Assembly: GCA_030425645.1 (NCBI GenBank)
Contig: JAUHZK010000001.1
Coordinates: 186,001 to 250,000 of the forward strand
From: Gammaproteobacteria bacterium
GTDB taxonomy: Bacteria > Pseudomonadota > Gammaproteobacteria > JAPPPA01
Reading direction: 5' to 3'
DNA: 64,000 nucleotides
Shown: in pieces, positions 13,021 to 23,987 of the stretch
Numbering within the stretch: position 1 is the first letter of the stretch
Layout: the number at the start of each line of letters is the position of its first letter
Position numbers and translations under genes: made by a program
The notes under the pieces: model-generated
Databases searched by the model: none
What the model saw: the letters and a program-made list of their open reading frames with translations, nothing else
What the model was told of the DNA's origin: nothing

Positions 13021-13833
13021 CTAGGCAACCTTTAGCTTGGGCTGCCAAGCTTCCGTCATAAATTGGCTAATAATGTTTGAAAGCCTAGCTGGGCGGTCCC
13101 GCAGTTCGAAGATGGATTCGGCAGCTACAAATTGCGCCGCTGGAATTTGCTTCGACAGCTTTTCGGCGTCAGTAAACGGGTGTAACGCGTCGTTGGGGTG
13201 CCCAATAATTAAGGTGGGTACACGGATTGATTGGCGCTCGGCCTTGGTTGGGGCAATTGGCCCAACTAGGGTGCCGCTGAGCACCGAGCCGATGGCGTCG
13301 GGGTCGTTGGCAAAAATGGTTCGTAGTGAATCCCAAGCGACCTTGTCGCGTTTAGGTAGCTTGCGTAGTAGGCGAGAGACTGGGCGCACAAGCCCCGGCG
13401 CAAAACGCGTGGCCATTAGCAGCGGTGCTAGCAGTACCACGACGCCGGGTACGGCGTGCTCCAGCACAGGCATCTCAAGCATTAGCGCTTGTACACGTTG
13501 TGGGTGGCGCAAATAAGCATGCATGGACACGTCGGCACCCAGCGAGAGGCCGCCAAATACGGCTTGCTTAATGCCGAGATGGTCTAATAGTGCAACGGCT
13601 TGATCTGCGTACTTGTCCATGCGCAGCACAGAGATGTCGTCGGGTTTGTCGGATAAGCCGTGCCCTAGTAGATCCAGCAGTAGAACTTTAAAGCCTTGCT
13701 TGGCTAGGTCTTGCCCTAGTGACCTATTAACGTCGGTGTCCATCAAAATGCCGTGGAGCAGCACGATGGTGCGAGAGCCTTCGCCCAGTTGCTGATAAAA
13801 CAAACGATGTTCTTGGTAATTGAAGTAGGCCAT
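13021..13833 (-). CDS. Alpha/beta hydrolase
   Basis: A 270-residue cytoplasmic alpha/beta-hydrolase. It has the oxyanion-region motif VLLHGILMD, a GHGLSDKP segment typical of the epoxide hydrolase/haloperoxidase-like group, and the nucleophile elbow GGLSLGADVS (Ser). An acid in LIIGHPNDALHPF follows. The usual C-terminal catalytic His is not obvious: the expected region reads AAESIFELRDRPARL, so activity may be altered or the His lies elsewhere. ATG 13833 is chosen because it begins the fold (MAYFNYQEHRLFY); the frame is open for another 34 codons upstream across the promoter. The shared operator-like sequence links it to the ETF operon. Confidence 0.82.
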   Translation of the reverse strand: MAYFNYQEHRLFYQQLGEGSRTIVLLHGILMDTDVNRSLGQDLAKQGFKVLLLDLLGHGLSDKPDDISVLRMDKYADQAVALLDHLGIKQAVFGGLSLGADVSMHAYLRHPQRVQALMLEMPVLEHAVPGVVVLLAPLLMATRFAPGLVRPVSRLLRKLPKRDKVAWDSLRTIFANDPDAIGSVLSGTLVGPIAPTKAERQSIRVPTLIIGHPNDALHPFTDAEKLSKQIPAAQFVAAESIFELRDRPARLSNIISQFMTEAWQPKLKVA

Positions 13834-14134
13834 GGGGCACCCGTGTTGTCTCTTGATATGTTGCTTTGCATCATAACAAAAGAAAGCCGTTGGCCAAGCG
13901 CTTGCTTGAATTTTACAGAAGCTAACTCTTTCCATCGAACGGCAACCGCGTAATACTTGCGTCCCGACAAATTGGCTTCTTAAACAAAGATGTGTGCCTT
14001 TTCGGCCAATCTAGGCTAGGCTTGTCGGCCGGTCTTCTGGCAGGAGCATGGGAGCTCATATCAGTAGGCCTTGGAATTTTTGGGGAGCTGGGCGTAAGTC
14101 TGGCGGTTTGCACAGAAAATTGGAGGAGAAACAC
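13834..14134. promoter_or_regulatory. Divergent control region between hydrolase and DUF1329 genes
   Basis: This 301-base spacer has no supported gene. On the reverse strand it carries a promoter for the hydrolase: TTGGCC (13897-13892), a 16-base spacer and TATGAT (13875-13870). Further right is a CTAGG direct repeat (about 14013-14022). GGAGGAG (14122-14128) is the ribosome site for the DUF1329 gene. No comparably good promoter toward the DUF1329 gene was recognised. Confidence 0.55.
13894..13908 (-). promoter_or_regulatory. Operator-like 15-mer overlapping the hydrolase -35
   Basis: The reverse strand reads CAAGCAAGCGCTTGG. The same 15 bases occur at 20584-20598 in front of the ETF-QO gene. 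Its last four bases (TTGG) are the start of the hydrolase -35 element, so a bound protein would block RNA polymerase. It contains the palindrome CAAGCGCTTG. The style resembles TetR-family operators, but the regulator is not identified. Confidence 0.6.
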
Positions 14135-15529
14135 ATGACTTCTACTAAAACATCGCTAACGCTAGGTGTTGCACTAGCGTTGCCATTGCTTGCGTTTAAC
14201 GCTCAAGCAAAAGTTAGCGCAGAAGAAGCTGCGAAATTGGGCGACAGCCTAACCATGGTGGGTGCCGAGGCTGGCGCCAATGCCGACGGCAGCATTCCTG
14301 CCTTCCAAGGAAAAACTCTCTTTTCCGACACCGAGTTGGCTTATACCTATGACGACATTGAGAAAATGTCTCGCCAAGAGCAAAGCGACACGCTGGCGGC
14401 CTATATGGCCCGCAATGAAGCAGCCGATGTTGTCTTTGAAATTACCGGTGCCAACTATCAGGAACACGCCGACAAGCTAACCGAGGGCCACAAGGCGCTG
14501 TTTGCCAAGTTCCCTAATAGCTACAAAATGAAGGTTTACAAAACCATGCGTAGCGCTTTCTTCCCAGAAGAAATTGAAGCTGCGACCAAGGCCAATGCGA
14601 CTACCGCAACCTTGAATGGTACTGATAGCCTGCAGGGTGCGACTCTAGGCTTCCCGTTCCCGATTCCTACATCTGGCGCTGAGCCGATTTGGAACCACAA
14701 AACCAAATATCGCGGCAACGCCGTTATTCGTTATAACAATCAGGCGATTGTGAAAACCGACGGTACCTTTAAGTTAACTAAAGTAGTAGAAGACGTGCTC
14801 TTCACTTATGCCAATTTGGCGGGTAATACCCAAGATGGCATCTTGTTGTACTACCTACAAACTGACTTGGGTTCTTCTGGTACGCGTACCTTGGTGCACG
14901 AGACTGCCGACCAAGCTAAAGACAAGCGCAACGCTTGGCTATATAACAAAGGTTTTGGCCGTTTGAAGCGTGCGCCTAACGTAGGTTACGACAACCCGTC
15001 ACAGACGTCTGATGGCGAACAGTTCAACGACCAAGTAGATATGTTTAACGGCGCTTTGGATCGTTACAACTGGAAACTGGTTGGCAAAAAAGAAATGTAC
15101 ATGCCGTACAACTCTGCTGACATCAACAGCCCAGTACTTAAGTACAACGAGATCCTAAAAGCTGGCCACGTGAACCAAGACCTAGCGCGTTACGAATTGC
15201 ACCGCGTATGGGTGGTTGAAGCGACCTTGCAAGATGGCAAGCGCCACAAGTTAGGTAAGCGCGTGATGTATATCGACGAAGATTCTTGGTCAATTAACGC
15301 GGTAGATGGCTACGATGGCCGTGGTGAATTGTGGAAATTCCAAGAAGGTCATATGGTATCAGTACCTTGGGTAGGTACAGCTTCAGCTGTTCCAGAACTC
15401 ATTTATGATTTACAGTCAGGTCGTTACTTTGCTACAGCGATGGTTAACGAAGAAAAATTGAATAATACGGACGCGGATTTCGCGGTTAAGTACTTCAAAC
15501 CTGCTAACGTAGACAAGCGTATTAAATAA
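14135..15529 (+). CDS. DUF1329 outer-membrane-associated protein
   Basis: A 464-residue exported protein with a signal peptide (SLTLGVALALPLLAFNAQA) and the DUF1329 pattern: an early LGDSLTMVGAEAGANADGSIP segment, NHKTKYRGNAVIRYNN in the middle, RVMYIDEDSWSINAVDGYDG and a C-terminal LIYDLQSGRYFATAM. The family has a LolB/LolA-like fold and accompanies DUF1302, YCF48-like and RND-type genes in gammaproteobacteria that handle hydrophobic substrates; its activity is unknown. ATG 14135 follows an ideal GGAGGAG site. The two genes downstream form the rest of the module; no DUF1302 gene is present here. Confidence 0.85.
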   Translation: MTSTKTSLTLGVALALPLLAFNAQAKVSAEEAAKLGDSLTMVGAEAGANADGSIPAFQGKTLFSDTELAYTYDDIEKMSRQEQSDTLAAYMARNEAADVVFEITGANYQEHADKLTEGHKALFAKFPNSYKMKVYKTMRSAFFPEEIEAATKANATTATLNGTDSLQGATLGFPFPIPTSGAEPIWNHKTKYRGNAVIRYNNQAIVKTDGTFKLTKVVEDVLFTYANLAGNTQDGILLYYLQTDLGSSGTRTLVHETADQAKDKRNAWLYNKGFGRLKRAPNVGYDNPSQTSDGEQFNDQVDMFNGALDRYNWKLVGKKEMYMPYNSADINSPVLKYNEILKAGHVNQDLARYELHRVWVVEATLQDGKRHKLGKRVMYIDEDSWSINAVDGYDGRGELWKFQEGHMVSVPWVGTASAVPELIYDLQSGRYFATAMVNEEKLNNTDADFAVKYFKPANVDKRIK

Positions 15530-15572
15530 TCGCAAGGTATAAGGCCGGTGTTTAGGCATTGGCTTTTGGCCG

Positions 15573-15604
15573 CAGCCCTGCTTCCTGAATAGGTTGCAGG
15601 GCTG
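15573..15604 (+). other. Hairpin between DUF1329 and YCF48-like genes
   Basis: CAGCCCTGC (15573-15581) and GCAGGGCTG (15596-15604) form a nine-base stem with a 14-base loop in the 135-base spacer. There is no T-run after it. It may stabilise or attenuate the mRNA between the two genes. Confidence 0.5.
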
Positions 15605-15664
15605 TGTGTCCTTGTAAAACAAGCTTTATAAGCAATTATCAGCTCTGTACAGAGGGGAGAATCT

Positions 15665-16720
15665 ATGAATAGGAGTATGCATTTGCGGACCGCGGTGGCA
15701 GGGGCGCTTATGTGCGTCGGTGCCGGTGCGAGTCTGCCCGTGGCCGCTGAGGTTACTGATCCAACGATGGTGCTACAGCCTGCTGAAATCATGCCGTTAG
15801 CTGCTGAAAGTCAGCTTTTGGACGTGACGGTGGCTGGCACGCGTTTGGTGGCGGTGGGTGACAAAGGTCACGTGCTGACATCAGATGACAAAGGTGACAC
15901 TTGGGTTCAGCAAAACGTACCTGCGCGCCAGATGCTTATTTCGGTCGACTTTGCAGACAGCCAAAACGGCTGGGCTGTGGGTCACGATTCAATTATCTTG
16001 CGCACCCGCGATGGTGGCGAGTCATGGGAATCGCAAAATTTTGACCCAGAAACGGGTCAACCTCTGTACGGCGTGCTTGCGCTAAGTGAAACAGACGCTT
16101 GGGCGGTTGGTTCATTTGGTAAGTTCTTCCGCACTACCGACGGTGGTGACAACTGGGAAGTACAAGAAGTTGGTATTACCGAGCCAGGCGTACACTTAAT
16201 CTCGATCACGCAGTTGCCTAGCGGCACCTTGGTGGTTGTAGGTGAGGCGGGCATGGTTGCTTACTCTAACGACAACGGTGACAACTGGAACCTAGGCCAA
16301 ACGGCTTATGCGGGCTCTTACTTTGGCGTGCTGCCAATGGGTAACAATGGCGTTATGTTGTACGGCCTACGCGGCACTGCACGTAGTGCGGTTGATGTGA
16401 GTGTGTTGCCTGAGATGGACCCTTGGGATCTGGACGCATTTTCTATCCAGTCTGAGTGGACGGATGAAGAGCTGGCGGCGATTGGTTACGAAAACGTAGC
16501 CGTACCGGCAGCTACGGCGGTATTTGGTGGTGCTATCACTTATGACGGTAACTACGTCATGGTTGGCCAGAACGGTTCTTTGTATAAAGGCGCTCCGGGC
16601 AAAACGGAGCTCACTAGCGTACCAAGCCCGACCAACAAATCCCTTAACTCTGTAGTTGCACTTGATGATCGTCTGATTGCCGTTGGCTTATCTGGCGTGC
16701 AAGTGATCGAACTGCAGTAA
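15665..16720 (+). CDS. YCF48-like beta-propeller protein
   Basis: A 351-residue exported protein with an N-terminal signal (TAVAGALMCVGAGASLPVAA) and repeats of the YCF48/BNR kind: a GDKGHVLTSDDKGDTW block, then GHDSIILRTRDGGESW, GSFGKFFRTTDGGDNW, GEAGMVAYSNDNGDNW and a late GQNGSLYKG. Such repeats form a beta propeller; the plant and cyanobacterial relatives assist photosystem II assembly, which is not relevant here. In proteobacteria it travels with DUF1329 and MMPL/RND genes, and may be a periplasmic partner of the exporter that follows. GGGGAGA supplies the ribosome site. Confidence 0.85.
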   Translation: MNRSMHLRTAVAGALMCVGAGASLPVAAEVTDPTMVLQPAEIMPLAAESQLLDVTVAGTRLVAVGDKGHVLTSDDKGDTWVQQNVPARQMLISVDFADSQNGWAVGHDSIILRTRDGGESWESQNFDPETGQPLYGVLALSETDAWAVGSFGKFFRTTDGGDNWEVQEVGITEPGVHLISITQLPSGTLVVVGEAGMVAYSNDNGDNWNLGQTAYAGSYFGVLPMGNNGVMLYGLRGTARSAVDVSVLPEMDPWDLDAFSIQSEWTDEELAAIGYENVAVPAATAVFGGAITYDGNYVMVGQNGSLYKGAPGKTELTSVPSPTNKSLNSVVALDDRLIAVGLSGVQVIELQ

Positions 16721-16746
16721 CCGCACAGGATCTAGGAGTAAGAAAA

Positions 16747-19317
16747 ATGAGTGACGATAAGAACCAGGTCACAATTACAGACCGCATCCTGAATGTGGTG
16801 ATTCCGCCGATTTACCACCACCGTGTGGTAACTCATATTATTTTGTTGGCTTTGACAGTCTTCTTTGGCTATCAGGCGTCGCAAATTCAGCCGGATGCGG
16901 GTTTTGAAAAGTCCATTCCGCAACAGCATGAATACATGCAAATTCGTGCCAAATGGGCGCGAGATTTTGGTGGTGGTAACACCATTCTGGTGTCGTTGAT
17001 TAATCGCAACGGCCAAGACGGTGAGCATATCTACAACGAAGAATTCCTAACCAAACTAAGCAAGGTGACGGATGAGGTGTTCTTTGTTGAAGGTGTTAAC
17101 CGTAAGTCAGTAACCTCGCTGTTTACCCCTAACACTCGCTACATCGAGGTGGTTGAGGGCGGTCTAGCTGGTGAGGACGTGATTCCTTCTGATTACGTGC
17201 CTAACGAAAAGAACTTCCGTCGCATTCGCGACAACGTCGGTAAGGCGCAGATTATCGGTCGTTTGGTAACGGAGTCTGAAAATGGCGCCATGATTACCGC
17301 TGAGATCGAAGAGTTTGACCCGTTTACCGGCGAGAAGCGCGACCTTAAGCGGATTGCTGATCAACTAGAAGAAATTCGTCAGAAATACCAAACCGAAGAT
17401 ATCGGTATTCATATCATTGGCTTCGCTAAAGTCGTAGGTGATGTGACCGATGCGATTCCAAAGGTTATTGGTTTCTTCTTTATTGCCTTGGTCTTTACCT
17501 TGGTCATGCTGTGGATGTACCTCGGTTCGTTCAAGCTTTCCTTGCTGCCACTAGGTTCGGCAATTGTTGCCGTTATCTGGGAGTTTGGTTTATTCCGCTT
17601 CTTCGGTTACGGCTTGGATCCGTTCGCGATTCTTGTGCCGTTCTTGATTTTGTCGGTATCGGTATCTCACGGCGTACAGTACGCCAACGCATGGGTATCA
17701 GAAATTTTCAATGACAAGAGTTCGTACGACGCTTCATTGATTACCTTCCGCCGTCTAGCGATTCCGGGCACTACAGCCTTGATTACGGACGTTGCCGGCT
17801 TCCTGACCATTCTGTTGATTGATATCGACATTATTCAAGAGATGGCGATCAACGCTACCTTGGGTATGGCGGCGATTATCGTGACCAACAAAATGTTGAT
17901 GCCGATTTGGTTGACCTACGTTTCCGTTGGTGACATTGATAAGTTCAAAGTTGGCCAAGCCAAGCGTGAACAAATGGGCGACGGCCTGTGGAAATTCCTT
18001 GCCAAAGGTACCCGCACTGGTCCTGCCATTGTGATCATTATCTTGGCTGGTTTTGCCGCTGCTTGGGGCTTCTACAAGTATCCACAGCTGCAGGTAGGTG
18101 ACGCCCAGGCTGGTGTGCCAGAGCTATGGCCTGAGTCGCGCTATAACCAAGATACCGACGCGATCGTGAATAACTTCTCGATTGGTGCCGATATCATTAC
18201 GGTAATTGGCGAAACTCAACCGGAAGGCAACTCGCATTACCAGTTGATGGAGCAGCTTGACCGCTTTGAGTGGCATATGCGTAATACGGCTGGCGTGCAG
18301 AGTGTAATTACCCTGGGCACCTTCGCTAAGTTGGTGAACTCAGGTTTCCAAGATGGCCGTTTAGATGCTGTGCGTTTGCCGCGTAACAGCTTCTCTTTGG
18401 CACAATCGACGAACTACATTCCAACCACATCTGGCTTGTGGAATGACAAGCGTGACGGTTATGCGATCCATATCTTTACTAAGGATCACAAAGCCGAAAC
18501 CATCATCCATATTGTTGATGAAGTGAAGAAGTTCAACGCCGAAAATAAAGCTAACTTCATCGCTCTGAAAGACGATGTGGATGAAGCTTACTGCGATGAC
18601 AAATATGCAGCTGCTAGTGTCTTGAAAGAGGCCGACGATAAGGTAGCGATCTTGACTCAGGCTCGTTCTGACCAAGCCGTTATTGACGAGGCTATTGCTA
18701 AGAGTAAAGACGCCGCGTCGGAATACTCGCAGTTCGATAAGATTTGTCCAATGAACTTTGCCTTGGCGACTGGTAACGTCGGTGTAATGGCCGCGACCAA
18801 CGAGGTAATTAAGGCCAAAGAGATCGTTACCATTGCGATTGTATACGTGGTGATTTTGATCTTTATGTACCTGAGCTTCTGGCAAGTGGGTGGCGTGTTA
18901 TGCGTTGTCTTGCCGCTGTCGCTGGTGTCACTAACTGCATACGGTGTAATGGCAGAGCTACAGATTGGTATGAAGGTTGCGACGTTGCCGGTAGTGGCGC
19001 TGGCGGTAGGTATTGGTGTGGATTACGGTATTTACATCTACTCCACCATCCAAGAAGGCCTATACAACGGTGATGACCTTGAGACCGCCATGTACAACAC
19101 ACTCCGTAAAACGGGTAAGGCGGTGGTATTCACCGGTATTACCTTGGGCGGCGGTGTAATTACTTGGCTCTGGTCTGACCTTAAGTTCCAGGCGGATATG
19201 GGCTTGATGCTGCTCTATATGTTCACCGCGAACATGTTTGGTGCGATCTTGCTATTGGGCGCCTTGGCGCGCTTCTTGGCCAAGCCGCCTAAGAACAAGC
19301 CTGCTATCGCCCACTAG
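16747..19317 (+). CDS. RND/MMPL-family transporter
   Basis: An 856-residue RND-superfamily protein of the single-protein MMPL/hydrophobe-exporter type. It has one N-terminal helix (about 25-40), a periplasmic domain, a five-helix bundle (about 225-420) with a sterol-sensing-like region, a second helix and periplasmic domain, and a second bundle near 690-845. The expected acidic transport motif is seen as AVGIGVDYGIYIYSTIQEG. It probably moves a lipid or other hydrophobic compound across or out of the membrane, together with the DUF1329 and YCF48-like proteins; the substrate is unknown. AGGAGTAAG precedes the ATG, and a terminator follows the stop. Confidence 0.88.
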   Translation: MSDDKNQVTITDRILNVVIPPIYHHRVVTHIILLALTVFFGYQASQIQPDAGFEKSIPQQHEYMQIRAKWARDFGGGNTILVSLINRNGQDGEHIYNEEFLTKLSKVTDEVFFVEGVNRKSVTSLFTPNTRYIEVVEGGLAGEDVIPSDYVPNEKNFRRIRDNVGKAQIIGRLVTESENGAMITAEIEEFDPFTGEKRDLKRIADQLEEIRQKYQTEDIGIHIIGFAKVVGDVTDAIPKVIGFFFIALVFTLVMLWMYLGSFKLSLLPLGSAIVAVIWEFGLFRFFGYGLDPFAILVPFLILSVSVSHGVQYANAWVSEIFNDKSSYDASLITFRRLAIPGTTALITDVAGFLTILLIDIDIIQEMAINATLGMAAIIVTNKMLMPIWLTYVSVGDIDKFKVGQAKREQMGDGLWKFLAKGTRTGPAIVIIILAGFAAAWGFYKYPQLQVGDAQAGVPELWPESRYNQDTDAIVNNFSIGADIITVIGETQPEGNSHYQLMEQLDRFEWHMRNTAGVQSVITLGTFAKLVNSGFQDGRLDAVRLPRNSFSLAQSTNYIPTTSGLWNDKRDGYAIHIFTKDHKAETIIHIVDEVKKFNAENKANFIALKDDVDEAYCDDKYAAASVLKEADDKVAILTQARSDQAVIDEAIAKSKDAASEYSQFDKICPMNFALATGNVGVMAATNEVIKAKEIVTIAIVYVVILIFMYLSFWQVGGVLCVVLPLSLVSLTAYGVMAELQIGMKVATLPVVALAVGIGVDYGIYIYSTIQEGLYNGDDLETAMYNTLRKTGKAVVFTGITLGGGVITWLWSDLKFQADMGLMLLYMFTANMFGAILLLGALARFLAKPPKNKPAIAH

Positions 19318-19338
19318 GCCTAGTAGACATGTTCTAAG

Positions 19339-19370
19339 AAAAAGCGCTGCGGGTGACTGCAGCGCTTTTT
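19339..19370 (+). terminator. Terminator after the RND transporter gene
   Basis: AAAAAGCGCTGC (19339-19350) pairs with GCAGCGCTTTTT (19359-19370), with an eight-base loop and a T-run continuing to 19372. It ends the DUF1329-YCF48-RND unit and separates it from the AraC-type gene. Confidence 0.9.
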
Positions 19371-19494
19371 TTATGGCTGCCCCTTGCTGTATGCCGTTCG
19401 TCGGAAGCGAATTAATGTTTTTGCGCAGTGCAACATTTTGCGTTAGGGTGTCAGCCAATCAAATATATTGACTTCAGCGACAAGAGGTAAGCGT

Positions 19495-20547
19495 ATGTTG
19501 ACCGAAGCAGAAGCCACACAAGAATTACGAGACTCCGGCCTCGCCATGCTGCATTTGCATGAGGCGATGATGGCTTTGGAGATTGATGTTGGCAAAGTTT
19601 ATAGCCAGTTAGGACTCTCAACCGAGCGCCTGGTTGAGCAGTTGCGGGATCGTAAATTACGTACTCGCCACGATGCGGTCGCGGCTTTTTGGCAGGCCGT
19701 GGAAAATGTATCTGCTGATAAAGATATCGGCCTGCACTTGGGCGAATGCGCACCGCTATATAGAGGTCAGGTGCTGGAGTACCTATTCTTATCTAGCCTA
19801 ACCTTTGGTGAAGGCCTGAAGCGCGCGCTGAAATACCAGCGACTGTTCTCCGATGCTGCTCAAGGTGAGTTAGGGATCGAAGGCGACCAAGCTTGGCTGG
19901 CTTTTGATGTGGTGACCCATGCCACCGAAACCCCTAGGCACTTAGCTGAGTGGTTGGCTTGCGTGTTTATTCGTTTCTACCGCTTTGTTACCAATCGAAG
20001 CTTTGTACCCAATCGCATTACCTTTCGGCACTCGATGCCCACAGACACTAGCGAGCATGAGCGTATTCTGCGCTGCCCGGTAGATTTTGACCGTGGCAGT
20101 AATCGCATCTATTTTGATGCGGCATTGCTCGAGGCGCGTTCTCCGCATGCTGAACCCGAATTGTTAAAACTGCATGAGCAGGTGGCTAGTAAGCAGCTAC
20201 ATCAGTTGGAAAAGCAGGATGTGGTGGGTGATGTGCGTAGCGCCATCGCTGAGGTCTTGGAAGAGGGCGGCGCCAATCTTGAAGGCGTTAGCGAGCGCTT
20301 GGGCTATCGCCCACGAGAACTGCGTCATACCTTGTCTGAAGCCGGTACCAACTTTAACCAAATCTTAAATGACTACCGTCGAAACCTGGCGCGTCGCCTA
20401 TTGATCGAGACGGAAGAATCAATCGAGAATGTCGTCTATCTGACCGGGTTTTCCGAGCCGAGTACCTTCTATCGGGCCTTCAAGCGCTGGTTTGACGATA
20501 CGCCGGCGGGTTTCCGCAATAAATTTAAAGGTGAGCAAGCGCACTAG
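19495..20547 (+). CDS. AraC-family transcriptional regulator
   Basis: A 350-residue regulator with the arrangement of the OruR/ArgR-like AraC subgroup: an N-terminal ligand-sensing domain (about 1-235, including LGLHLGE-type segment GLHLGECAPLYRGQVLEYLF and HMPTD-like FRHSMPTDTSEHERIL) and a C-terminal double helix-turn-helix (about 250-345; LGYRPRELRHTL, then NVVYLTGFSEPSTFYRAFKRW). ATG 19495 follows AAGAGGT; a TTG further up (19468) has no ribosome site. It lies between the RND module and the ETF operon and could control either; the ligand is unknown. Confidence 0.88.
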   Translation: MLTEAEATQELRDSGLAMLHLHEAMMALEIDVGKVYSQLGLSTERLVEQLRDRKLRTRHDAVAAFWQAVENVSADKDIGLHLGECAPLYRGQVLEYLFLSSLTFGEGLKRALKYQRLFSDAAQGELGIEGDQAWLAFDVVTHATETPRHLAEWLACVFIRFYRFVTNRSFVPNRITFRHSMPTDTSEHERILRCPVDFDRGSNRIYFDAALLEARSPHAEPELLKLHEQVASKQLHQLEKQDVVGDVRSAIAEVLEEGGANLEGVSERLGYRPRELRHTLSEAGTNFNQILNDYRRNLARRLLIETEESIENVVYLTGFSEPSTFYRAFKRWFDDTPAGFRNKFKGEQAH

Positions 20548-20578
20548 CCGATTGTTGGCTTAAGAAATTTTTTCTGCG

Positions 20579-20602
20579 ACTACCAAGCAAGCGCTTGGTA
20601 GT
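20579..20602 (+). promoter_or_regulatory. Perfect 10-bp-arm palindrome before ETF-QO
   Basis: ACTACCAAGC (20579-20588), a four-base centre, then GCTTGGTAGT (20593-20602) make a perfect inverted repeat. Bases 20584-20598 are identical to the operator-like 15-mer before the alpha/beta hydrolase. It lies about 40 bases before the likely GTG start and the following T-run is absent, so an operator fits better than a terminator. A repressor of acyl-CoA/ETF metabolism is a plausible reader. Confidence 0.65.
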
Positions 20603-20639
20603 GTTATCCTGCCTGCTGATTTTTTGGCGGGAAGGGCCG

Positions 20640-22283
20640 GTGGAAGCCAATAATAACCATCAAAATATAAGCCAAGCGACAACGGACGAGATTGAACGCG
20701 ATGAAATGGCGTTCGATTACCTAATCGTTGGTGCTGGACCGGCCGGTCTAGCCACGGCGATTAGGTTAAAGCAGAAAAACGCCGATTTAACCGTTTGCGT
20801 GATCGAAAAGGCTAGCCAGCCGGGTATGCATTCCTTGGCGGGTGCCGTGATCGAAACCGCTGCTCTAGATGAGTTGTTTTCGGATTGGCGTCAAACGCCG
20901 CCAGACGTTTGGGTGCCGGTCACAAAAGACGAATTTAGCCTGCTGTCCGCAAGTTCTAAAACGCCGCTGCCGCTGCCGCCGCAGCAGAGAAATCATGACA
21001 ATGTGATTACCTCGTTAGGTGCTTTGGTTGCTTGGCTGGTGGAAAAAGCCGAGGCGCTTGGCGTAGAGGTTTATGCAGGTTTTCCAGCACAGCAGGCTCT
21101 GCTTGATGAGGGGCGTGTAGTTGGTGTGCGCACCGGCGACATGGGCCTTGATAAGCAAGGTTCGCCGAAAGACAGTTTCCAGCCCGGAATGGATTTGAAA
21201 GCCAAGGTAACTGTGTTGGCGGAAGGTTGTCGCGGTTCCGTGAGCAAGCAGCTGATAAAGCATTTTTCCTTGGACAAGAATAGCCAGCCGCAAACCTACG
21301 GAATTGGAATCAAAGAGCTGTGGCAGTTGCCTCCGGGTAGAGTCACGCCGGGCCTTGTGCAGCATAGTATTGGCTGGCCGTTAGATACGGCGACCTATGG
21401 TGGAAGCTTTCTTTACCACCTCGAAAACGACCAGGTCGCAGTGGGCTTTGTGGTTGGCCTGGATTATCAAGACCCGCGCTTTTCGCCGTTCGAAGCTTTT
21501 CAGCAGTTTAAACATCACCCCACAGTGAAGCCTGTATTGGAAGGGGGCGAAATTGTTTCATCTGGTGCTCGCGCCTTGGTGGAGGGTGGTTGGCAGTCTT
21601 TGCCGACGATGGATGCACCAGGGGTAATGTTAATTGGCGATGCCGCCGGTACTTTAAATGTGCCGAAGATTAAGGGTGTTCATACTGCCCTATGGAGCGG
21701 TATCTATGCGGCCGACCACTTGGTTGAGCAAGCCGACAGCGCGGGCTGGGACCAAGCCTTCCGCCAGTCGCCGGTGGCCAAAGAGCTTTACCAAGTCCGA
21801 AATATTCGTCCAGGTTTTCAATACGGGCTTTGGCGTGGCCTGCTAAACGCGGCCTGGCAAACATTAACGCGCGGATTGGTGCCGGGGGTGATGAAACACC
21901 ACGAAGATCATAGTGCTTTGAAGCGTTTGTCCGAGATGACCCAGCGTGACCGTCAATGGGTAGAGCGCGATTTGCCGCCAAGGGACCGTCTCGCGTCAGT
22001 TTATTTTGCAGCAACGGAGCATGACGAAGATCAGCCGGTGCATTTGCAAATTGCCGATCCTGATATTTGCACCAGTCGCTGCGCGCAAGAATATGGCAAC
22101 CCCTGTACAAAATTTTGCCCGGCCAATGTTTATGAAATGATAGAAACAGAGCAAGGTCGTCAGCTGCAGATCAATGCGGCCAACTGCGTGCACTGCAAAA
22201 CCTGCGACATTAAAGATCCTTATCAAATTATTAACTGGGTCCCGCCTGAGGGTGGTTCAGGCCCCAACTATAGAAACCTATAA
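20640..22283 (+). CDS. Electron transfer flavoprotein-ubiquinone oxidoreductase
   Basis: ETF-QO takes electrons from reduced ETF, fed by acyl-CoA dehydrogenases, and passes them to ubiquinone at the membrane. The 547-residue protein has the FAD motif YLIVGAGPAGLATAIRLKQ, HSLAGAVIE, the second FAD motif GVMLIGDAAGTLNVPKIKG, and a C-terminal 4Fe-4S domain with Cys in DICTSRC, CTKFCP and NCVHCKTCDIKDP. GTG 20640 behind GGAAGGG is chosen; the protein would be 22 residues longer than from ATG 20706 (MAFDYLIVG). Homologues have a few residues before that Met, so the exact start is uncertain. It is followed within six bases by etfB. Confidence 0.95.
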   Translation: MEANNNHQNISQATTDEIERDEMAFDYLIVGAGPAGLATAIRLKQKNADLTVCVIEKASQPGMHSLAGAVIETAALDELFSDWRQTPPDVWVPVTKDEFSLLSASSKTPLPLPPQQRNHDNVITSLGALVAWLVEKAEALGVEVYAGFPAQQALLDEGRVVGVRTGDMGLDKQGSPKDSFQPGMDLKAKVTVLAEGCRGSVSKQLIKHFSLDKNSQPQTYGIGIKELWQLPPGRVTPGLVQHSIGWPLDTATYGGSFLYHLENDQVAVGFVVGLDYQDPRFSPFEAFQQFKHHPTVKPVLEGGEIVSSGARALVEGGWQSLPTMDAPGVMLIGDAAGTLNVPKIKGVHTALWSGIYAADHLVEQADSAGWDQAFRQSPVAKELYQVRNIRPGFQYGLWRGLLNAAWQTLTRGLVPGVMKHHEDHSALKRLSEMTQRDRQWVERDLPPRDRLASVYFAATEHDEDQPVHLQIADPDICTSRCAQEYGNPCTKFCPANVYEMIETEQGRQLQINAANCVHCKTCDIKDPYQIINWVPPEGGSGPNYRNL

Positions 22284-22288
22284 ACGTT

Positions 22289-23035
22289 ATGAAAGTACTG
22301 GTTGGCGTAAAGCGCGTAGTCGATTTTAATACCCGCATTCAGGTCAAATCTGACGGCAGTGGCGTACAAACTGACGGCGTTAAGTTCAGCATGAACCCGT
22401 TTGATGAAATTGCTGTAGAAGAGGCGATTCGCCTAAAGGAAGCCGGCCTTGCAACCGAGGTGATTGCGGTCAGTATCGGCGGCGACAAAAACCAAGACAC
22501 ATTGCGCTCAGCGTTGGCAATGGGTGCCGACAGTGCTTTGTTGGTAAAAACAGACGACGAAATCCAGCCGCTAATGGCGGCCAAAATACTTAAAAACCTG
22601 GTCGAACAACAGCAGCCGAAACTCGTCTTGCTGGGTAAGCAGGCCATCGACGATGACGCCAATCAAACACCGCAAATGTTGGCAGGCCTGCTAGGCTGGC
22701 CGCAGGCAACATTTGCCTCGAAGTTGGAAATTGACGGTGATACCGCGGCAGTGACGAGAGAAGTTGATGCCGGACTTGAGACTTTGAGTGTCGACTTGCC
22801 TGCGGTCGTTAGTAGTGATTTGCGCCTTAATGAGCCTCGCTATATTAAGTTGCCAGACATCATGAAGGCAAAGCGTAAACCGTTAGAAGTGATCGATCTG
22901 GCCGATCTGAATATCGCCGCTAGCGCAAGTATTGCAACCCTCAAGACCTCGGCGCCGCCACAACGTCAAGCAGGCATCAAGGTTGAGTCCAGCGAGGCTC
23001 TAGTGGCTGAGCTAAAAGCCCGCAATTTGGTATAG
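22289..23035 (+). CDS. etfB: Electron transfer flavoprotein beta subunit
   Basis: EtfB forms the FAD- and AMP-binding ETF heterodimer with EtfA, and accepts electrons from acyl-CoA and related dehydrogenases. The 248-residue sequence shows MKVLVGVKRVVDFNTRI at the start, MNPFDEIAVEEAIRLKEAG, LGKQAIDDDANQTPQMLAG and the signature region VSSDLRLNEPRYIKLPDIMKAKRKP with the recognition loop. It lies between ETF-QO and etfA with short spacers, one operon. Confidence 0.97.
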   Translation: MKVLVGVKRVVDFNTRIQVKSDGSGVQTDGVKFSMNPFDEIAVEEAIRLKEAGLATEVIAVSIGGDKNQDTLRSALAMGADSALLVKTDDEIQPLMAAKILKNLVEQQQPKLVLLGKQAIDDDANQTPQMLAGLLGWPQATFASKLEIDGDTAAVTREVDAGLETLSVDLPAVVSSDLRLNEPRYIKLPDIMKAKRKPLEVIDLADLNIAASASIATLKTSAPPQRQAGIKVESSEALVAELKARNLV

Positions 23036-23048
23036 GAGAGCCGTTGTT

Positions 23049-23987
23049 ATGAACAAGATTTTAGTAATTGCTGAACATGCTAATGGCGTTCTAAATAGCA
23101 GTACTGCACGGGCGGTAGCTTGTGCAGCGGCCATTGGTGGAGAGATTACCGTCGCCGTGCTAACCACGGGGAGCTGCGACGTTGCCGCGCAAGCGGCTGG
23201 TCTCGAGGGCGTGGTCTCTGTCGCCGAGCTGACGAACCCTGGTAATGCGCAGGCCTTGGCGGCCTTACAGGCGCCTCAGCTGTTGGAAATCTCAGCGGGC
23301 TACACTCACGTGCTGGCGCCAAACAGTACTTTTGGCAAAGACCTAATGCCGCGTTTGGCGGCATTGCTAGATCGGCCAATGGTGACTGACATTATGGCGG
23401 TGCAGGATGCCCGCACCTTTGATCGCCCTGTATACGCGGGCAACGCTATCACCACGGTGCAGGTGGATGATGATGGATTGGTGCTGGCAACCGTTCGAGG
23501 GGCGTCTTGGCCGCCCGTTGTTCAGACCCAAGCGCCAGTGACGGTTGAGTGCCAAACCAGCGACATCGATCTACCGGCTCACACCCGCTTTGTCGCCTTA
23601 GACGGTGAGCAGGGTGACCGACCAGATTTGCAAGCGGCGGAAAAAGTTATTTCTGGTGGTCGTGGACTGGGTGCGGCTGAGCACTTCGCCCTGGTTGAGG
23701 CCGTGGCCGATAAGCTAGGTGCGGCGGTTGGTGCGTCTCGAGCAGCGGTAGACTCTGGCTGGGTGCCAAATGATCTGCAGGTTGGTCAAACCGGTAAAAT
23801 TATCGCGCCGGACTTGTATATTGCGGCCGGTATATCAGGTGCTATTCAGCACCTTGCCGGTATTAAAGATGCCGGCACCATTGTGGCGATCAACAAAGAC
23901 CCTGACGCGCCTATATTTGAGGTTGCCGATATTGGTTTGGTGGCGGATCTGCATGAGGTGCTGCCGGCGCTGACGGAAATGCTTTAG
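23049..23987 (+). CDS. etfA: Electron transfer flavoprotein alpha subunit
   Basis: EtfA carries most of the FAD site of ETF. The 312-residue protein begins MNKILVIAEHANGVLNSST and shows the FAD-domain run with SGGRGLGAAEHF, GASRAAVDSGWVPN, VGQTGKIIAPDLYIAAGISG and AGIKDAGTIVAINKDPDAPI, all typical. AGGAG lies before the ATG. The gene ends the ETF operon; no strong terminator follows, only a small TTTGGG/CCCAAA hairpin. Confidence 0.97.
   Translation: MNKILVIAEHANGVLNSSTARAVACAAAIGGEITVAVLTTGSCDVAAQAAGLEGVVSVAELTNPGNAQALAALQAPQLLEISAGYTHVLAPNSTFGKDLMPRLAALLDRPMVTDIMAVQDARTFDRPVYAGNAITTVQVDDDGLVLATVRGASWPPVVQTQAPVTVECQTSDIDLPAHTRFVALDGEQGDRPDLQAAEKVISGGRGLGAAEHFALVEAVADKLGAAVGASRAAVDSGWVPNDLQVGQTGKIIAPDLYIAAGISGAIQHLAGIKDAGTIVAINKDPDAPIFEVADIGLVADLHEVLPALTEML

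Follow-up and report, generated by a model that had tools for sequence, protein, structure and literature searches.

The window analysed here, a stretch of 64,000 nucleotides from a gammaproteobacterial genome, carries the same 15-mer, CAAGCAAGCGCTTGG, in two promoter regions: at 13894–13908 on the minus strand, upstream of an alpha/beta hydrolase gene, and at 20584–20598 on the plus strand, upstream of the ETF-QO gene. The original prediction, which gave the positions and strands of both exact copies correctly, read the repeat as the site of a TetR-type repressor of an acyl-CoA/ETF regulon that includes the hydrolase. Is this a shared operator and, if so, which protein would bind it, and how many genes would it reach? 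We conclude that the repeat is very probably the operator of L019, a TetR repressor of the AtuR/PfiT/KstR2 kind that would control a core acyl-CoA regulon. About a dozen genes that serve the breakdown of fatty-acid-like molecules are thus probably switched together by one repressor, whose own gene lies outside the window. The sites across the genome, a site at the regulator's own gene and conservation in a congener all support the regulon as it was predicted.

The repeat and its setting in the window

At ETF-QO, the 15-mer forms part of a longer palindrome, ACTACCAAGC-AAGC-GCTTGGTAGT (20579–20602), which had been described as perfect with ten-base arms and proves to be so on direct reading of the sequence, the arms being separated by a 4-nt spacer. 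The unit that matches an operator is a 14-bp dyad within it (AGCAAGCGCTTGGT, 20586–20599, plus strand), which agrees exactly with ANCAAGCGCTTGNT and has its centre 2 bp off that of the long palindrome. Its counterpart at the hydrolase (13893–13906, minus strand; AGCAAGCGCTTGGC in minus-strand letters) has one mismatch to ANCAAGCGCTTGNT and contains the exact 13-mer AGCAAGCGCTTGG. The outer palindrome, CAAGC-N4-GCTTG, was rejected as the unit: it has 209 sites within one mismatch, and the inner dyad is far more specific.

Within the window, 47 distinct 15-mers recur, compared with ~9 in a first-order Markov simulation (~0.5 with both copies noncoding). Recurrence of a 15-mer is thus not rare here, and the case for the site needs the whole genome; the earlier argument that chance is very unlikely is weaker than stated for the window and stands at the genomic scale considered below.

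The hydrolase (270 aa), a proposed target, is encoded at 13021–13833 on the minus strand, with its start placed at the ATG at 13833, not 13935, on the basis of its congener ortholog (L140). The predicted sigma70-like promoter, TTGGCC-16-TATGAT, is present on the minus strand (13870–13897; 9/12, with TG before the −10), and its −35 overlaps the operator, sharing four bases with the 15-mer; the corresponding positions in the congener read TTGGCT and TAATAT in an alignment inspected by eye. Divergent from the hydrolase is a DUF1329 gene (14135–15529, plus strand; start assigned from the congener), which begins ~235 bp from the hydrolase-side site and is followed by YCF48-like (PSII_BNR) and MMPL/RND genes (15665–19317, plus strand). 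It is possible that this DUF1329–YCF48–RND module is under the control of the window site. An AraC-type regulator gene (Arabinose_bd and HTH_18; 19495–20547, plus strand; start likewise from the congener) lies directly upstream of the ETF-QO operator, as it does in the congener. ETF-QO itself (20640–22283, plus strand), also a proposed target, has its predicted start at the GTG at 20640, after GGAAGGG, and would form an operon with etfB and etfA (22289–23987, plus strand), judging by orientation and short spacers. A promoter scan at the ETF-QO dyad gave no consensus promoter; a weak, possible extended −10, TGTTATCCT, can be read just 3' of the dyad (20602–20610, plus strand).

Sites across the genome

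The scan of the whole genome that had been proposed for the palindrome finds most strong sites in the promoters of acyl-CoA catabolic genes. ANCAAGCGCTTGNT occurs exactly eight times in 2.75 Mb, against ~0.16 expected (our own arithmetic, for equal base frequencies), and 30 times within one mismatch, against 6 for a reversed control pattern. Six of the eight exact sites lie in promoters of acyl-CoA genes: fadB1 (C2:107268), thiolase–fadB (C2:156026), ETF-QO (window position 20586), the atuA operon (C10:44194), the BVMO/DUF1302 pair (C11:196209) and a second hydrolase of 291 aa (C11:93318). Sites with one mismatch include that of the window hydrolase, together with those of two fadE genes (C8:261542 and C9:183743), IcmF (C12:241627) and a tetR gene (C8:220057), and the panC–panD spacer holds a site with two mismatches (C6:41044). 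The target families were confirmed by Pfam. Both window sites contain the exact 13-mer AGCAAGCGCTTGG, as do the thiolase–fadB, fadB1 and second-hydrolase promoters; of 369 genomes from the class, 4 contain the 17-mer CCAAGCAAGCGCTTGGT.

The remaining two exact sites fall within coding DNA, one of them in rpsM. Since ATCAAGCGCTTGAT lies within rpsM both in this genome (L116, 3052–3065) and in a Pseudomonas (L275, 2925–2938), coding constraint explains this copy, a coincidence to be left out of motif scans.

In the atuA operon, the exact site is ~30 bp before atuA, which is followed by genes for a carboxyltransferase, an acyl-CoA dehydrogenase, a hydratase-like protein and a biotin carboxylase. 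The operator at the DUF1302 gene (L029, G000:C11, 4210–4223) immediately precedes the likely ribosome-binding site, and the BVMO-like gene is divergent. Both DUF1302 and the DUF1329 module of the window adjoin an operator, and the DUF1302/DUF1329 pair may share control. Between panC and panD, the palindrome reads CCAAGC-N4-GCTTGG (L036, G000:C6, 4045–4058) and is retained in the congener (L152) with a different spacer sequence. Through this site, the acyl-CoA regulon could be linked to pantothenate/CoA supply.

Conservation in related genomes

Comparison with related genomes, which had also been suggested, shows the site to be kept. In the congener G001, the dyad is present at 11 orthologous loci, which is every target tested (fadE760, fadE821, fadB1, thiolase–fadB, atuA, ETF-QO, both hydrolases, IcmF, tetR and panC–panD; the BVMO/DUF1302 locus lay outside the stretches compared). 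The dyads of the window hydrolase and of thiolase–fadB are identical at 14/14 positions, against averages of 8.8/14 and 6.8, respectively, for other windows of the spacers, and that of ETF-QO is likewise identical at 14/14. Fisher's combined p for dyad conservation is ~2.5e-5, a rough value since the windows overlap. At fadB1, fadE821 and some other sites, the spacers are too conserved for an informative footprint test, and at the panD and IcmF sites the two species have different spacers, with the outer CCAAGC and GCTTGG arms retained.

Beyond the genus, three other lineages have a self-site before their tetR homologs. In G008, which belongs to another family and has a TetR homolog with 40% identity, the sole exact site of the genome is in the atuA–tetR spacer. 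In G331, from a further family (49% identity), each of the four exact sites is at a promoter, that of tetR or of one of three acyl-CoA dehydrogenase loci. The homologs in Neisseriales (L156–L170; Chromobacterium, Aquitalea and relatives) are ~48% identical with nearly the same recognition helix; upstream of them, the operator is absent and a shared palindrome was not found. These genes mostly follow a glycosyltransferase-like gene, not atuA.

A candidate regulator

The regulator's gene had been expected outside the window, and the candidate, L019, does lie there (196 aa; G000:C8:219427–220014). A search for a TetR gene with the site in its own promoter had been proposed as a check, and L019 has such a site, ACCGAGCGCTTGCT beside TATAAT, as do its homologs in the other lineages described above and in the congener (ATCGAGCGCTTGGT beside TATACT). 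Twelve TetR genes were found in the genome, and only L019 has TetR_C_24 above cut-off (90.5 bits; TetR_N, also over its cut-off, 59.1 bits). In a PDB search, the nearest solved structures were 4mxm/4mo7 (PfiT, a homolog of PA2885, which we take to be AtuR), 3vpr and KstR2 (4w1u); 3vpr, from Thermus, and 5k7f, from Myxococcus, are TetR regulators within the similarity range of L019, presumably PfmR and AibR, respectively, both acyl-CoA-linked. The L019 gene is on contig C8, where it adjoins a folD-like gene and no target gene; atuA is on C10. In a protein tree of TetR sequences (from which the G331 TetR was omitted), L019 falls outside the Pseudomonas AtuR clade, beside Pseudomonas and Neisseriales clades, with the branching order not resolved.

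Alternative explanations

A PsrA-type TetR is improbable as the protein that binds the site. In Pseudomonas and Shewanella, PsrA is known to control ETF and fad genes, the same role over ETF and fatty-acid degradation, and its operator has a related layout: in P. aeruginosa, where it controls the ETF genes, this is C/GAAAC-N2-4-GTTTG/C (PMC13104628), which the outer arms CAAGC-N4-GCTTG resemble. However, it differs in both its C-terminal domain and its operator letters: the letters of the present site fit AtuR/KstR2, and it is a TetR_C_24 gene that carries the self-site. Moreover, PF17939 (TetR_C_30), the C-terminal domain of PsrA, is present in every Pseudomonas genome checked and has no match in this genome (G000; 99.5% complete), on which ground PsrA was rejected. 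Five Pseudomonas and Vreelandella genomes have 1–3 exact sites and a clear PsrA-domain match each, compared with eight sites and no match here; the congener has one weak PF17939 match (45 bits), so the loss of PsrA is not clean. For an E. coli-type FadR, the only match was a GntR homolog below cut-off (fadR_gamma, 86.8 bits versus 249), and a general acyl regulator of the FadR kind may possibly be present as well. This FadR-like GntR gene (L280; G000:C10:119375–119995, minus strand) adjoins a fatty-acid-hydroxylase-like gene both here and in the congener.

Local binding by the AraC-type protein encoded at 19495–20547, or by another regulator, is suggested by the position of its gene, which has a window site on either side and adjoins ETF-QO in the congener as well. 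We consider this very unlikely: some ten more operons outside the window are preceded by this site, as are tetR genes in lineages of other families, and AraC-family sites are usually direct repeats. The original prediction, too, ranked the AraC-type protein as the weaker candidate. Equally doubtful is a non-regulatory origin, by chance, through a bias towards GC palindromes or as a terminator hairpin that follows the AraC gene. The many recurrent 15-mers of the window speak for it, and the ten-base arms could form a hairpin; against it, no run of T follows the palindrome, the terminator scan returned only a weak 5-pair stem elsewhere, and the genomic excess of exact sites, mostly in promoters, their conservation in the congener and their identity to a published operator are not those of a chance repeat.

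Proposed mechanism

With L019 as the preferred regulator, a dimer of this protein would bind the 14-bp dyad AnCAAGCGCTTGnT, which is next to or over the −10 and −35 elements of its targets, and would thereby block RNA polymerase; release would then come from an acyl-CoA or a similar thioester. By analogy with AtuR, RdmA and KstR2, the simplest model is steric repression, rather than activation, relieved by a ligand of the acyl-CoA kind. The predicted regulon comprises ETF-QO/etfBA, the two fadB/thiolase loci, the two fadE genes, the atuA–carboxylase–acyl-CoA dehydrogenase operon, the IcmF-type mutase, the BVMO/DUF1302 pair, the two hydrolases and the L019 gene itself, and perhaps panD. An anonymous repeat thereby gains a name as an operator, a candidate for its regulator and a list of targets open to testing.

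Comparison with known systems

The AtuR site of P. aeruginosa consists of two 13-bp repeats, AGCAAGCGCTTGG and CCAAGCGCTTGCT, to which RdmA of P. nitroreducens also binds in EMSAs (PMC9973270), and the KstR2 operator is AnCAAGnnCTTGnT, again with positive EMSAs (PMC3068626). By sequence, the window sites are operators of the AtuR/KstR2 type, letter for letter: the first of these repeats is present unchanged, and the genome sites fit the KstR2 motif. A literature search for the FadP operator yielded no motif.

The likeness to AtuR extends to the protein, as the Pseudomonas TetR at atuA is ~44–45% identical to L019 with a near-identical HTH, and to the atuA–carboxylase–acyl-CoA dehydrogenase operon, which carries the site here. 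The arrangement differs: the AtuR site is formed by two inverted repeats ~40 bp apart, both found in most Pseudomonas atuR–atuA spacers of our sample, whereas each promoter here (window, atuA spacer) has a single dyad; and atuR is divergent from atuA in Pseudomonas, which is not so for L019 but is for the G008 homolog. Operator, domain and the site at the atuA operon fit AtuR, and L019 would work like AtuR without necessarily being its ortholog. KstR2 of Mycobacterium shares the 14-bp motif and an acyl-CoA degradation regulon; it is a distant relative (phmmer E 7e-17) that controls cholesterol C/D-ring genes in actinobacteria, and no ipd/cholesterol cluster is among the loci with sites. PfiT/PA2885 belongs to the same protein group, studied as a Crohn's-associated antigen (PMC3873459), which gives the bacterial role some wider interest.

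What is new is scope: in the literature, AtuR is a local terpene regulator, and the Pseudomonas genomes sampled have 1–3 exact sites each, one of them at atuR–atuA, whereas the eight here extend to fad, ETF and hydrolase genes, with a further site at IcmF. In this genome, where no PsrA is detected, core beta-oxidation appears to be under the control of the site. On balance, we lean slightly towards a non-orthologous replacement, in which an AtuR-type regulator took the place of PsrA over beta-oxidation and ETF and its unchanged operator spread to about a dozen promoters, one of them perhaps tying CoA supply (panD) to acyl-CoA breakdown. A narrow terpene/branched-acid repressor would then have widened into a core regulator of lipid catabolism, with operator letters that it still shares with AtuR of Pseudomonas and KstR2 of mycobacteria.
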